DNA of 64,000 bases from assembly GCF_026210795.1 (NCBI RefSeq), contig NC_089459.1, forward strand, positions 1,054,001 through 1,118,000, in the 5' to 3' direction. Positions 861 through 5,475 of the stretch are shown in pieces. The notes under the pieces are model-generated. The model saw only the letters and a list, made by a program, of their open reading frames with translations, did no database searches and was not told the origin of the DNA. The stretch comes from Rhizophagus irregularis. Its lineage: Eukaryota > Glomeromycota > Glomeromycetes > Glomerales > Glomeraceae. The position numbers and the translations under genes are program-made. Within the stretch, counting starts at the first letter, position 1; each line of letters opens with the position of its first letter.

Positions 861-3158
861 ATGAACCCAACAGAAGAATCAAAGTTTAAAATTTGTACAC
901 AATGTAATAAAAAAGTGATAAGTTTTCCAAATAACTTTTGTAGGAAACAATTTCTTTCATCAATTGATAATGAGACAAGTGGAAATATCAATTTAGATGA
1001 ATTTATTAAAAAAACTCAATTAAATTCAAAATTCTGTGATGATTTTATTGAATGGATACCGTATTCAAATTTTGAGAATATAAAATATTTAACAAGTGGT
1101 GGAAATTCAAAGATTTATTTTGGAAATTGGTTATTAAACAAGTCTTTGGCTTCAATGTCATCGCTTAATGTCGTCCTAAAAGTTATTAGAATTAGTGATT
1201 CTCTAAAAGAGGTAAAATATGTTAATAATAGATTTATATTAATTATATAATTAAATTTGGTTAATTCAATCATTTAGCTTAAAATTCATCATAAATGTCG
1301 TGGTCAAAACATTATACCATTTTATGGAATAACGAAAGCACCTGAAGAGGATGAATATGCTATGGTCATACAATGTGCGAAATATGGAGATTTACGAAAT
1401 TATATTCGTAAATTTTTTTCAAGCTTAAATTGGACCGACAAAGCAAATATTCTTATTAAAGTTTCAAAAGCTTTAAATTTTCTTCATCAAATGAATTTAT
1501 TTCATAAAGATATTCATTGTAAAAATATTTTAGTAGATGAAGAACATAGAGTTTTAATAAATGATTTTGGACTTTGTCAATCTAGTGATTCGGAAATAGG
1601 TAAATGTATCATGTAATGCTGTAATACTTATCAATATATATATTAATCTAATTAAATAACTAACACATTTATGTATACAATACATTAAAAAGTTCCAAAT
1701 ATTCTTCAAGGAGTTTTACCCTATATCGCTCCTGAAGTTCTAAGACGTAAATCATATACAAAACAATCAGAAGTATATAGTATAAGCATGATCATGTGGG
1801 AATTAACTTCAAAGAAACCACCATTTTCGGATTGGTTTCATGACGTAGAACTTGCACTCGCAATTCTTGATGGAATGAGGCCTGATATTGTTGAAGGAAC
1901 ACCCGAATTTTATGTTGATATTATGAAACAATGTTGGGACCCTGATCCATCACAAAGACCTGATGCTACCCTTTTGCCAAAAATATTTGAAAAAATGATG
2001 GAATCATGTAAAATGTTTGATAACAATATATACTCACCAATACGAGAACATCAATCTGACATTATAAATAATTCAAATGAGAATAGTACTGAGTCAGGTA
2101 TATGATATGAGAGTTTATTATTAAATAAATTTACAATTAGTAATATTAAAATTGATTTCTTTTTAGTAGGTTATATAACTCAAGCGTATAATTATTCTCT
2201 TGGAAAATTATCTTTATCTACTGAATTACAAGGTAAGTATTTAAGATTTTAGCTATGATTTTGATACATATTAATTAATTTATTCTATTAATCTAGATGA
2301 TGATCAACCCGAAATAGAAGAAAAAAAAATTACCAAAGAATTTTCTATAGAATTGACCAATCAAATAGAATATTATGAATCAAAACCTATTAATAGCTCT
2401 TTTGATATTAATACAATTACAATAGAAGAGAAAATAATAAAACAATGTGACGACAACAAATTAAGAAAACCGAGATCTAAGAAGAATCCCGAATATAATG
2501 AAAAACGAGCTTATAAACTTCGTAAATATCAAATAGCTGGTAAGTCTCATAAATAAAAAATTGCGCCTATTTAAGATTTATGTTTATAATTATTAAATTA
2601 CTTTTATTATTATTATTATTTAGGCAAATTAAAAAAAAGTATGAATACTAAAATAATTTGTTTTATTATTCGTTTAGTTATTTTATATTAATGTTCATGT
2701 TGCTTATAATATGAATTTTTTAGAAAATCGTAGATCTATAACACTACCGGAAGATGACGGTAAGTATATTTTTAATTTAATTGAATGAATGTTTATTTCA
2801 CATTATTTGATTGTTAATTATTCTCTTTTCTTTTTGTTATTAAGATGAAATTGGTAAGTTTGTATATATATATATTAAAAAATTATTACGGTTGAACTTT
2901 AATTCTAATTCTCTATATTATTTAATTTTAGTATCAGGAAGTGAAGGTATATTTAATAATGATAAATTTATTAAATATTATTATATTTTTTAACAAATAT
3001 TATCAAAATTTTATTTAGATTCTAGATATGCTACTCAAACATACGACTTTACATTAGATGGCAAGTAAATATACATATATTATATTAATTATTACTGACA
3101 ATAATTCTTTTTTAACTTTTCATTCTTTTAATATAGATCTGAACAAGAGTTACAATAG
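861..3158 (+). CDS. Protein kinase (TKL-like) with micro-exon tail
   Basis: Eleven exons: 861-1211, 1278-1599, 1693-2097, 2167-2232, 2297-2539, 2624-2638, 2724-2759, 2845-2853, 2932-2946, 3019-3064 and 3137-3158. They sum to 1530 nt (509 aa). The N-terminus has a CxxC pair (C-T-Q-C-N-K-K). The kinase domain spans about residues 70-340: glycine loop L-T-S-G-G-N-S-K-I-Y, lysine in V-V-L-K-V-I-R, catalytic loop H-K-D-I-H-C-K-N, D-F-G, Y-I-A-P-E and an M-W-E-L segment. All key residues are present, so it is probably active. This style of kinase is hugely expanded in Rhizophagus. After the kinase domain come a lysine/glutamate-rich linker and six short exons (15, 36, 9, 15, 46 and 22 nt). Introns 2 to 9 are all in phase 1. 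The start at 861 was chosen because the open frame upstream looks like leader. An alternative last intron with a GC donor at 3061 would end the protein at 3168. The function of the tail is unknown. Confidence 0.85.
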
Positions 3159-3769
3159 GCTACAATAAAATAATAATTGTTCTAATATATATATATATAT
3201 ATTTATAATTCTACTAATTTATTATTTAATTTATTATTTAATTCTTTTTTATTTTATAATTACAGTAGTCATATGTTATTATTCGGTTATTAATTGTAAA
3301 ATAGGAATATACATTGTAATTTATAATGTTTATTAACAAAAGTATAATATGTATCTAAGTATGTATATCTGAGATTTTTTGCGTACAATTTAGATAAATT
3401 ATTTTCTTCATAAATTACGAAGAAAATGTAAAAATTTATCATCACAGTGATCATTAAATAAATTTACAATTGATATTAAATAGTTATTGAATAGAGATAT
3501 CGGTCTTCGACCGATATCCTCCATTATAACTGAGTTACAGTACGGTCATTAGGAATACTTGCGGTGACCAATAGGAATTAATGTTCTGATGGATATTTCA
3601 TAGTCATTAAAATCCCGCATATTCCTAATCGACCGAACAATAAATGTATGTTCTAATTTACAAATATTAATAATAATAATACTATAAAGGAGCGAAATTT
3701 GACTATTTTGTCAAGAAAATAATATTTAACAAATGCAAATGTTTCTATTTATAAGTCTAATTATATAAT
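3159..3769. other. Intergenic with small hairpin
   Basis: AT-rich spacer between the kinase and the subtilase, which are transcribed toward each other, so it should hold both 3' ends. The only clear structure is the hairpin at 3496-3518. I see no coding signal. Confidence 0.5.
3496..3518. repeat. Perfect 10-bp hairpin with TTC loop
   Basis: GATATCGGTC is followed by TTC and then by its exact reverse complement. It lies between two convergent genes, about 340 bp past the kinase stop. Its loop and closing bases resemble the larger hairpin at 6539-6617. It may be a processing or termination structure, or the remnant of a small palindromic repeat. Confidence 0.6.
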
Positions 3770-5475
3770 TTATGGACTGGGTATACGTAAAAATCTATTA
3801 GGCGTAGCATTTTGTAGGTTTGTTAAAATATTTTTGGTAGATAATGTTATTAATTCATTTATCATTAATGATGGGTTCATGTTGCCCTTTTTGCTAATGA
3901 TTAAAGCGACAGTACCAGCAACGTGTGGGCAAGCTTGGCTGGTTCCTGAAGCCTTGGATAATGAATTAGTTAGTAAAGCACCCGCTGCAACAATATCCAC
4001 TCCTGGAGCAAAAATTTTTACGCAGGATCCGGTATTAGTTAAGTTTGTAATTTTATTTGTAGATTTTTCCGTGGCACCAACAGTAATTGCTTGTGGTGCT
4101 GATGCTGGCGATACATTGCATGCATTACTTGAATCGTCACCTGCTGATACCACTACGTGAATACCAGCATTACTACAAAGGCTTATCATTTGATTAATTG
4201 CCTGAGAATATGCTCCTCCAAGTGACAAACTATGAAATTAATTTAAAAATTTTATTAATATTTTGTTAAGATTAACCATTTTAAATGAAATTAAAATATT
4301 TACTTGACCACCGTTTTTTTATTTGAACTTTTTGAGTGTTGGAGGATTACGTAAGACAATCCTGCCACCACTGTTGTTGAAGAACCTTGCCCACTTTGAT
4401 CTAATACCTTAATTGCAATGAGAGTTGCTTTATTGGCAACTCCATATTTCTTACCCCCAATCTACCAATAGAAAAGAGTTCAATGAATGTGAATATGAAA
4501 AAAAATTTAGAAATTTTTTATAAATGTTACTTACAATACCAGCAACGTTGGTTCCGTGGCTATATCGAATATTGATATGTATAAAAGAAATAAAATTTTT
4601 TAGAATCGATTGATTTGATTTATTTAATTTTTTTTCTCACTTACCCATTATCATCGGTTGATGAACAACCAGCGCAAAAGCTACCTCCAAAACTTGCTCT
4701 TCCCTCAAATTCAGCATTTTTAATATCAATTCCTCTAAAAAATAAATAAAAAATTAAAGAAAGTTGTTGCACGTTGAACAAATTATTTAACGTACTCACG
4801 TGTCAACTACGTAAACGTTTACTCCGGAACCAGCACTAGTTGGGTAATTGTATTTTCCATCCAATGGAAAATCTTTTTGGTCGATTCGATCAAGGTTCTA
4901 GTATTCAATTTAATTTTATTAGAATAGAAATTAAACTTTAACTCTCCTTGTATATTACAATTACTTACGTAAGGCAAACCATTTTGAGTAGGTGTGCTAG
5001 TAGCTGCTCTTTTTTTTAATTGATCCTCTTCAATGATAACAGTATTATTAACAGCATAATTGGCCTTTATTTTAATAACTTTTTCAACAAAATTAACATC
5101 ACTTCTTTTTGATAATGTATCGACAAACTTCTTATCAAAAAATCCACTGTAAATTGAAAATTTTCCATCAGTGGAATGGTCTGTGATAAGATTTTTATCA
5201 GGTTTATTATTATTACTGCTACTACTAAATATTCCTTGTCCGGGGCTAGACTTTTCCACACGACGTCCTAAACATTTTATAAGCATTTCCTTATGGTCCG
5301 ATACGACGGATTGAATGGACAATATTGAAGTTTTAAGAAAAACCAGATGTTCTTCTTGTGAACCCGAATCCAAAGATTGTATTGTAAAGGGACATACTAG
5401 AGCGAATGTAATGGATGATAATAATAAGTTTAGAAATGAGAGAAGGATTAGGGAACGCAGTGAAATCATTTTCAT
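3770..5475 (-). CDS. Secreted subtilisin-like serine protease (S8, proteinase K type)
   Basis: Six exons read on the minus strand: 5475-4969, 4897-4800, 4734-4645, 4559-4535 (only 25 nt), 4461-4304 and 4229-3770. Total 1338 nt, 445 aa. Residues 1-25 form a hydrophobic signal peptide. A pro-region follows (about residues 40-150) with a pattern like the I9 inhibitor propeptide. The catalytic triad is visible: Asp in V-Y-V-V-D-T, His in G-H-G-T-N-V-A-G (the whole of the 25-nt exon) and Ser in S-G-T-S-Q-A-C-P-H-V-A-G. The oxyanion segment V-N-L-S-L-G-G is also present. Secreted enzymes of this family degrade extracellular protein and are common in plant-associated fungi. The predicted role is secretion, propeptide removal and extracellular or cell-wall proteolysis. 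No break was seen. The model is strong because every motif falls in frame across the five introns. Confidence 0.92.

Follow-up and report, generated by a model that had tools for sequence, protein, structure and literature searches.

Predicted micro-exons in the tail of a Rhizophagus irregularis protein kinase and arrays of codon-sized exons in related kinase genes

A kinase gene with a predicted micro-exon tail

The window, the whole stretch of 64,000 nucleotides (nt) of Rhizophagus irregularis DNA analysed here (contig NC_089459.1, hereafter C31, positions 1054001-1118000), carries close to its left end a protein kinase gene (861-3168, + strand), the tail of which appears to be assembled from very short exons. 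Consensus-site splicing predicted 11 exons (Table 1) and a protein of 511 residues. The spliced protein matched the Pfam family PK_Tyr_Ser-Thr (PF07714) with an E-value of 3.3e-42 and a score of 145 bits, above the family threshold of 23.1, and contained the catalytic motifs VVLKVIR (VxLK lysine), HKDIHCKN (HxD..N loop), NDFGLC (DFG) and APEV (APE). The gene encodes a TKL-type / Tyr-like protein kinase, in an arbuscular mycorrhizal fungus for which 2,533 kinases have been counted (R. irregularis DAOM197198; PMC10234402). The genome searched comprised 146,748,485 bases in 32 contigs.

The initial annotation described seven consecutive exons of 405, 66, 243, 15, 36, 9 and 15 nt, all beginning and ending in phase 1, and assigned phase 1 to introns 2-9. 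Recomputed lengths and phases agreed on both points and extended the pattern: exons 3-10 are all symmetric and introns 2-10, nine in succession, are all in phase 1, while intron 1 is in phase 0. The introns are typically 64-93 nt long, and the micro-exons contribute 75 nt to a coding sequence of 1,536 nt. The tail had been taken to end at 3158; the TAG that ends there is out of frame, and the in-frame stop is the TAA of exon 11. Paralogues carry DxRYxTQTYxFSLD followed by (D)LNxxYN, the counterparts of window exons 10 and 11, which confirms both the gene end and the GC-AG intron between these two exons.

The region from the donor after 2539 to the acceptor before 3019 was searched for exon chains on frame, stop-freeness and splice strength, with 300 dinucleotide shuffles as a control. 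The best chain consisted of exactly four micro-exons, of 15, 36, 9 and 15 nt, and no shuffled control (0/300) gave any in-frame micro-exon chain. The predicted spliced string through the micro-exons is GGAAGATGACGATGAAATTGTATCAGGAAGTGAAGATTCTAGATATGC, and transcripts that include exons 6-9 would be expected to contain GGAAGATGACGATGAAATTGTATCAGGAAGTGAAGATTCTAG. Exons 5 and 10 are themselves compatible in frame and could be joined by a single intron of 479 nt, in which case exons 6-9 would be unreal. No close orthologue of these exons was found by which conservation could be judged: a genome search with the window tail (exons 4-5) matched only the window gene itself. However, the absence of four in-frame micro-exons with good splice sites from all 300 shuffles, together with the rule of 64-93 nt introns in this gene, makes the single long intron unlikely. 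By every available sequence test, the micro-exon tail of the window gene is real.

The motif encoded by window exon 4, GYITQAYNYSL, resembles that of exon 10, SRYATQTYDFTLD, and from this resemblance the kinase tail may contain a duplicated exon.

Table 1. Predicted exons of the window kinase gene, with its GC-AG intron
Feature	Position	Strand	Content	Basis
Exon 1, 351 nt	861..1211	+	Start codon, N-terminal CxxC stretch, kinase domain start	Splice model, Pfam
Exon 2, 322 nt	1278..1599	+	Kinase domain, HKDIHCKN and NDFG; phase-1 end	Boundary common to paralogues
Exon 3, 405 nt, phase 1-1	1693..2097	+	Kinase C-lobe (APEV...), tail start	Splice model, Pfam, paralogues
Exon 4, 66 nt, phase 1-1	2167..2232	+	Tail exon GYITQAYNYSL...	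YxTxAYxYSL exon also in paralogues
Exon 5, 243 nt, phase 1-1	2297..2539	+	Charged tail, unique in genome	Splice model, genome search
Exon 6, micro-exon, 15 nt, phase 1-1	2624..2638	+	GCAAATTAAAAAAAA	Splice model, chain test
Exon 7, micro-exon, 36 nt, phase 1-1	2724..2759	+	NRRSITLPEDD	Splice model, chain test
Exon 8, micro-exon, 9 nt, phase 1-1	2845..2853	+	ATGAAATTG	Splice model, chain test
Exon 9, micro-exon, 15 nt, phase 1-1	2932..2946	+	TATCAGGAAGTGAAG	Splice model, chain test
Exon 10, 42 nt, phase 1-1	3019..3060	+	DSRYATQTYDFTLD	Conserved end exon of paralogue group
Intron 10, GC-AG	3061..3136	+	Same donor is GT in paralogues	Splice model
Exon 11, 32 nt	3137..3168	+	DLNKSYNRLQ, stop TAA 3166-3168	Homologous DLNKAYN exon in paralogues

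Predicted codon-sized exons in the closest paralogues

A scan of the kinase paralogues in the genome for micro-exon runs, as put forward with the initial annotation, uncovered runs far more extreme than that of the window gene. Its nearest relatives lie at 941-1,025 kb on C31 and at 1.81 Mb on contig C7, and these paralogues differ between the kinase domain and the common last exons. Two of them (L014 and L018) have a micro-exon chain at the tail position. Three others (L017, L019 and L020) have long tandem arrays there, in which an acceptor AG, exactly 3 nt and the donor GTAAGT recur every ~100 bp, and the conserved exons at the end of the window gene also terminate the arrays of the C31/C7 group. 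A frame-blind parse of the L019 array gave 26 exons, all of them multiples of 3 nt, to which a later parse added one further codon exon; the translation is stop-free, VPTIQDNESLQINEWIDQSWQINIHFDQDSN running into DPRYNTQTYKFSLD. In the paralogue at C31:1008-1012 kb, an exon ending ...GACTATACTCTCGAAG precedes the codon exons and ATCCTAGATATAATAC follows them, with a predicted spliced string of TCGAAG followed by TTCCTACAATTCCACAAGACAACGAATCTTTGCAAATTAACGAATGG...

Two further observations were made in this cluster. L015 has one large Pro/Gln-rich tandem-repeat exon at the tail position (about 2040-3270, - strand) and no micro-exons, and the codon-exon array of L020 encloses, at about 4240-4345, part of a different kinase tail (LLNFNNLPGPKNSDDYYEYNGNIISIKTSG), which looks like the insertion of a foreign exon.

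Genome-wide census of 3-nt exon arrays

The repeated unit has the strict anatomy AG/NNN/GTAAGT, with a spacing of about 95 nt between successive 3-nt exons. A search of the whole genome found 3,198 strict neighbour pairs of such exons, compared with three for the reversed-pattern control, and when the second exon was allowed any length from 4 to 14 nt the same pattern gave 52 matches. The census figures are lower bounds; the pattern recovered ~57% of the neighbour pairs in sampled loci, from which the true number may be some 5,600. When 18 array loci were parsed without regard to frame, 472 exons were of 3 nt, 19 of 6 nt, 6 of 9 nt and 3 of 12 nt, and most other lengths occurred in single figures. 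The array introns are ~95 nt long with about 12% G+C, and 69% contain a branch-point-like CTRAY. An earlier parse, with a small training set and a light exon-length cost, produced long false exons in arrays A17 and A20 that were mostly corrected by raised costs and array-derived site models; artefacts are still left by the parser in B30, B33 and B34. Within the window there is no 3-nt exon array, the shortest exon of the window gene being 9 nt. A search of the open literature, which did not extend to subscription papers and preprints, found no work that links micro-exon arrays to Rhizophagus or to arbuscular mycorrhizal fungi.

Arrays upstream of the kinase domain close with an apparent 1-nt exon

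The sampled kinase arrays outside the C31/C7 group lie 5' of another kinase subfamily. The exon order in these is exon 1 (encoding, where seen, M(G/A)QSN(D/G)KG-like ends, and MGQCISKG in one gene), a symmetric exon 2, 15-65 micro-exons, an apparent 1-nt exon in the context TTTAG/A/GTAAGT, and the exon encoding the kinase N-lobe, which is entered in phase 2. The 1-nt exon "A" closes 11 of the 12 sampled 5' arrays; for the twelfth, the sequence taken stopped at the last 3-nt exon, and the genome-wide census showed that this array, too, has the 1-nt end. The combination of a last codon exon and the 1-nt exon was detected at 92 loci at least (for example C1:1386057-1386151), with none in the reversed control, and 80 of the 92 preceded an N-lobe exon of a kinase, on the same strand, by 59-386 bp (median 70).

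Triplets leave phase 1 unchanged, however many there are, and one further nucleotide turns it into phase 2; without the 1-nt exon the frame would not close. A phase-0 reading of the arrays was considered and rejected; it is nearly stop-free too (5/556), but phase 1 is set by exons 1 and 2 together with the 1-nt exon. The stop that B28 seemed to contain disappeared once a missed exon (ATA) was found.

Stop codons are avoided only where neighbouring exons join

In phase 1, each codon combines the final base of one exon with the two opening bases of the exon that follows ~95 nt further on, and only translation of the spliced product can couple them. Stop codons at exon junctions were counted in 16 arrays comprising 464 micro-exons, and expectations were obtained by shuffling exon order inside arrays. 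Neighbouring junctions formed one stop where 22.7 were expected (0/1,000 shuffles this low), and this single stop comes after a mis-parsed exon. Junctions that skip exons formed stops at the chance rate, with 23 observed and 21.2 expected at lag 2, 25 and 20.2 at lag 3, and 21 and 19.1 for the next-longer skip; all lags through 8 (seven exons skipped) were at chance. The other junction frame showed no depletion (63 vs 59.4), and the result was stable to leaving out each array in turn, so that no single array was responsible. Tandem copying was rejected as the source of this avoidance, as counting distinct neighbour pairs once per array still gave 1 vs 19.3.

Since stops are purged only at neighbour junctions, these data suggest that the functional product joins neighbours in order; the tiny array exons are apparently translated, in order and all included, and are apparently not used combinatorially. 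Rare or regulated skipping may occur in array genes.

This bears on the combinatorial use proposed in the initial annotation, in which the symmetric micro-exons would be cassette exons giving many alternative tails, as in schistosome micro-exon genes and the Tuber nank family. The frame is indeed kept on any skip: exons 4-9 were said to be skippable in frame, which is formally right, and all 128 skipping combinations of window exons 4-10 are stop-free. Published precedents are also described as alternatively spliced (PMC4986451, PMC5825161). However, skip junctions that form stops at chance beside purged neighbour junctions argue for fixed inclusion in the array relatives, and unit duplication explains the symmetry with no need for cassette use. 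Cassette splicing is judged improbable.

The same data bear on whether the arrays are exons at all. Their units are tandem repeats with similar introns, and an array could instead be non-coding, an intronic satellite excised in a single long intron, with the spacing of 3 nt as a by-product of the repeat unit. Against this, positions ~95 nt apart jointly avoid stops in the one frame dictated by the flanking exons, splice sites are intact while few columns of the unit vary as much as the 3 nt between them, and the 5' arrays end in a 1-nt exon that the frame requires. A satellite appears very improbable.

Codons vary more than introns within arrays

In alignments of the units, the 3-nt exon columns were the most variable, or nearly so, and differed between units about 2-9 times as much as the intron columns. 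In A19 the mean pairwise difference was 0.59-0.77 (about 0.70) in exon columns and 0.14 in intron columns, and most arrays were alike. Either selection on the codons or exchange that keeps the introns alike could be the cause. Higher-order repeats were present, such as CTC GTG TTT TTT in A17, ATG ATC ATC CTG CAT in B32 and AAT CTT xGC AAATTA in A19, which indicates tandem duplication of one or several units at a time.

Discussion

The tail of the window kinase is, very probably, spliced from phase-1 micro-exons that are normally all included, and represents a mild member of a genome-wide architecture in which kinase genes carry one codon per exon. The unit that has been tandemly duplicated in many R. 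irregularis kinase genes would be an intron of ~95 nt with a single codon, forming a codon-per-exon linker before the kinase domain (in at least 92 genes) or a tail after it (in the C31/C7 cluster). The introns would be recognised as units, by intron definition, and removed stepwise, because simultaneous binding of two splice sites separated by 3 nt is hardly feasible. Each step would join one codon and expose the next 5' splice site, in the manner of a ratchet that leaves a codon behind; on sequence grounds, the AG/NNN/GTAAGT anatomy fits such exposure after each recursive-splicing step. Unequal exchange would make the arrays grow and turn over with no risk to the frame, each unit contributing 3 nt, and the arrays would provide a linker or tail of variable length that changes fast.

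In its widest form this proposal holds that thousands of constitutive 3-nt exons, each with its own splicing step, build the linkers and tails of a large kinase family, closed by a recurrent 1-nt exon, and that the units expand like a minisatellite, with codons outpacing introns, so that signalling proteins diversify fast through changes in the DNA itself, as opposed to alternative splicing. We regard the chances of this wider proposal as about even.

Several points weigh against these interpretations. All splicing was predicted from DNA, in a single glomeromycete genome. The window gene is without 3-nt exons, and the constitutive use of its micro-exons is carried over by analogy from its relatives, as it has too few exons for a stop test of its own. 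The arrays of the C31/C7 cluster taken alone gave 0 stops vs 3.5 expected (p about 0.01), a weaker test. In L018, a 4-nt length change in the first tail exon past the kinase domain breaks the reading frame and brings a stop before the array; this gene may be dead or may use another site. The array A17 contains one 4-nt unit, and some array copies may be dead.

Codon-sized micro-exons are already known from a fungus. A 2012 study, as cited in PMC4986451 and PMC10197012, reported them in the nank (NACHT-ANK) family of Tuber melanosporum as a mechanism of alternative splicing. The truffle system resembles the R. irregularis arrays in that a symbiosis-forming fungus has multiple one-codon exons in an expanded signalling or receptor family. 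It differs in belonging to another phylum and in having NLR hosts, whereas the hosts in R. irregularis are kinases. In the latter at least 92 genes are involved, with codon exons in the thousands, and the arrays lie on either the N- or the C-terminal side of the kinase domain; there is also a recurrent 1-nt exon and evidence of fixed inclusion. The window gene itself lacks the several 3-nt exons typical of nank, which its paralogues do have. The statement in the initial annotation that no case had been described in a fungal kinase may stand, but micro-exons of this size had been described in a fungus. In the kinases the scale is far larger, and the use apparently non-combinatorial. SP7-like effectors were considered as a micro-exon precedent in the same fungus and set aside; the sources, in the passages concerned, describe one conserved intron and no micro-exons.

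Schistosome micro-exon genes have symmetric exons of 6-36 bp making up ~80% of the coding sequence and encode secreted proteins (PMC5825161). The window kinase shares with them the run of symmetric micro-exons, but these form a far smaller part of its coding sequence, and the start of its protein, MNPTEESKFKICTQCN, has no hydrophobic leader by direct reading, no signal-peptide program having been run.

The single-nucleotide exon of Arabidopsis APC11, for which intron definition and recursive splicing were proposed by its authors (PMC4674806), is like the R. irregularis element in being a 1-nt "A" exon that the frame requires; APC11 is one gene, whereas here the same element closes arrays at 92 or more kinase loci. 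Trichoderma virens Xlr2 has one functional 20-nt switch micro-exon under glucose regulation (PMC11121469), likewise in a filamentous fungus but with no array. Introners and introner-like elements (PMC9860276, PMC4457414) also give many near-identical introns per genome. In R. irregularis, unlike these, the intron copies are tandem within genes and carry a codon, and the higher-order repeats point to local duplication.

If the proposal is correct, spliceosomes would have to make a long succession of joins, through dozens of 3-nt exons and one of 1 nt, with few errors, which would strain models of splice-site pairing, and a route would be shown for tandem-repeat expansion inside genes with the frame preserved. 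If aligners, as is usual, cannot place 3-nt exons, well over 90 kinase gene models would miss parts of the protein. The junction-stop test needs only DNA and provides a general means of separating fixed from combinatorial micro-exon use, and could be applied to Tuber nank and to the schistosome genes.

Other loci

Among the genes found here, the nearest to a schistosome micro-exon gene is L037 (C29:492500-498000). At 1272-2344 an exon for a signal peptide precedes exons of 6, 3, 6, 3, 12, 3, 3, 6 and 3 nt; the predicted product, MKFNIFLLLVTIFAAVTLASPLESRGCCFCVGGRSCLAICCDQKVEQ, would be a secreted peptide rich in cysteine, with introns interrupting the cysteine codons, and it had no match in Pfam. 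Apparent relatives with exons of 3-9 nt were seen in L038 (C6:3547500-3552500, - strand), at C32:902294-902843 and at C21:1359505. In the window, the kinase gene is neighboured by a gene for a subtilisin-like serine protease with short introns (3770-5475, - strand).
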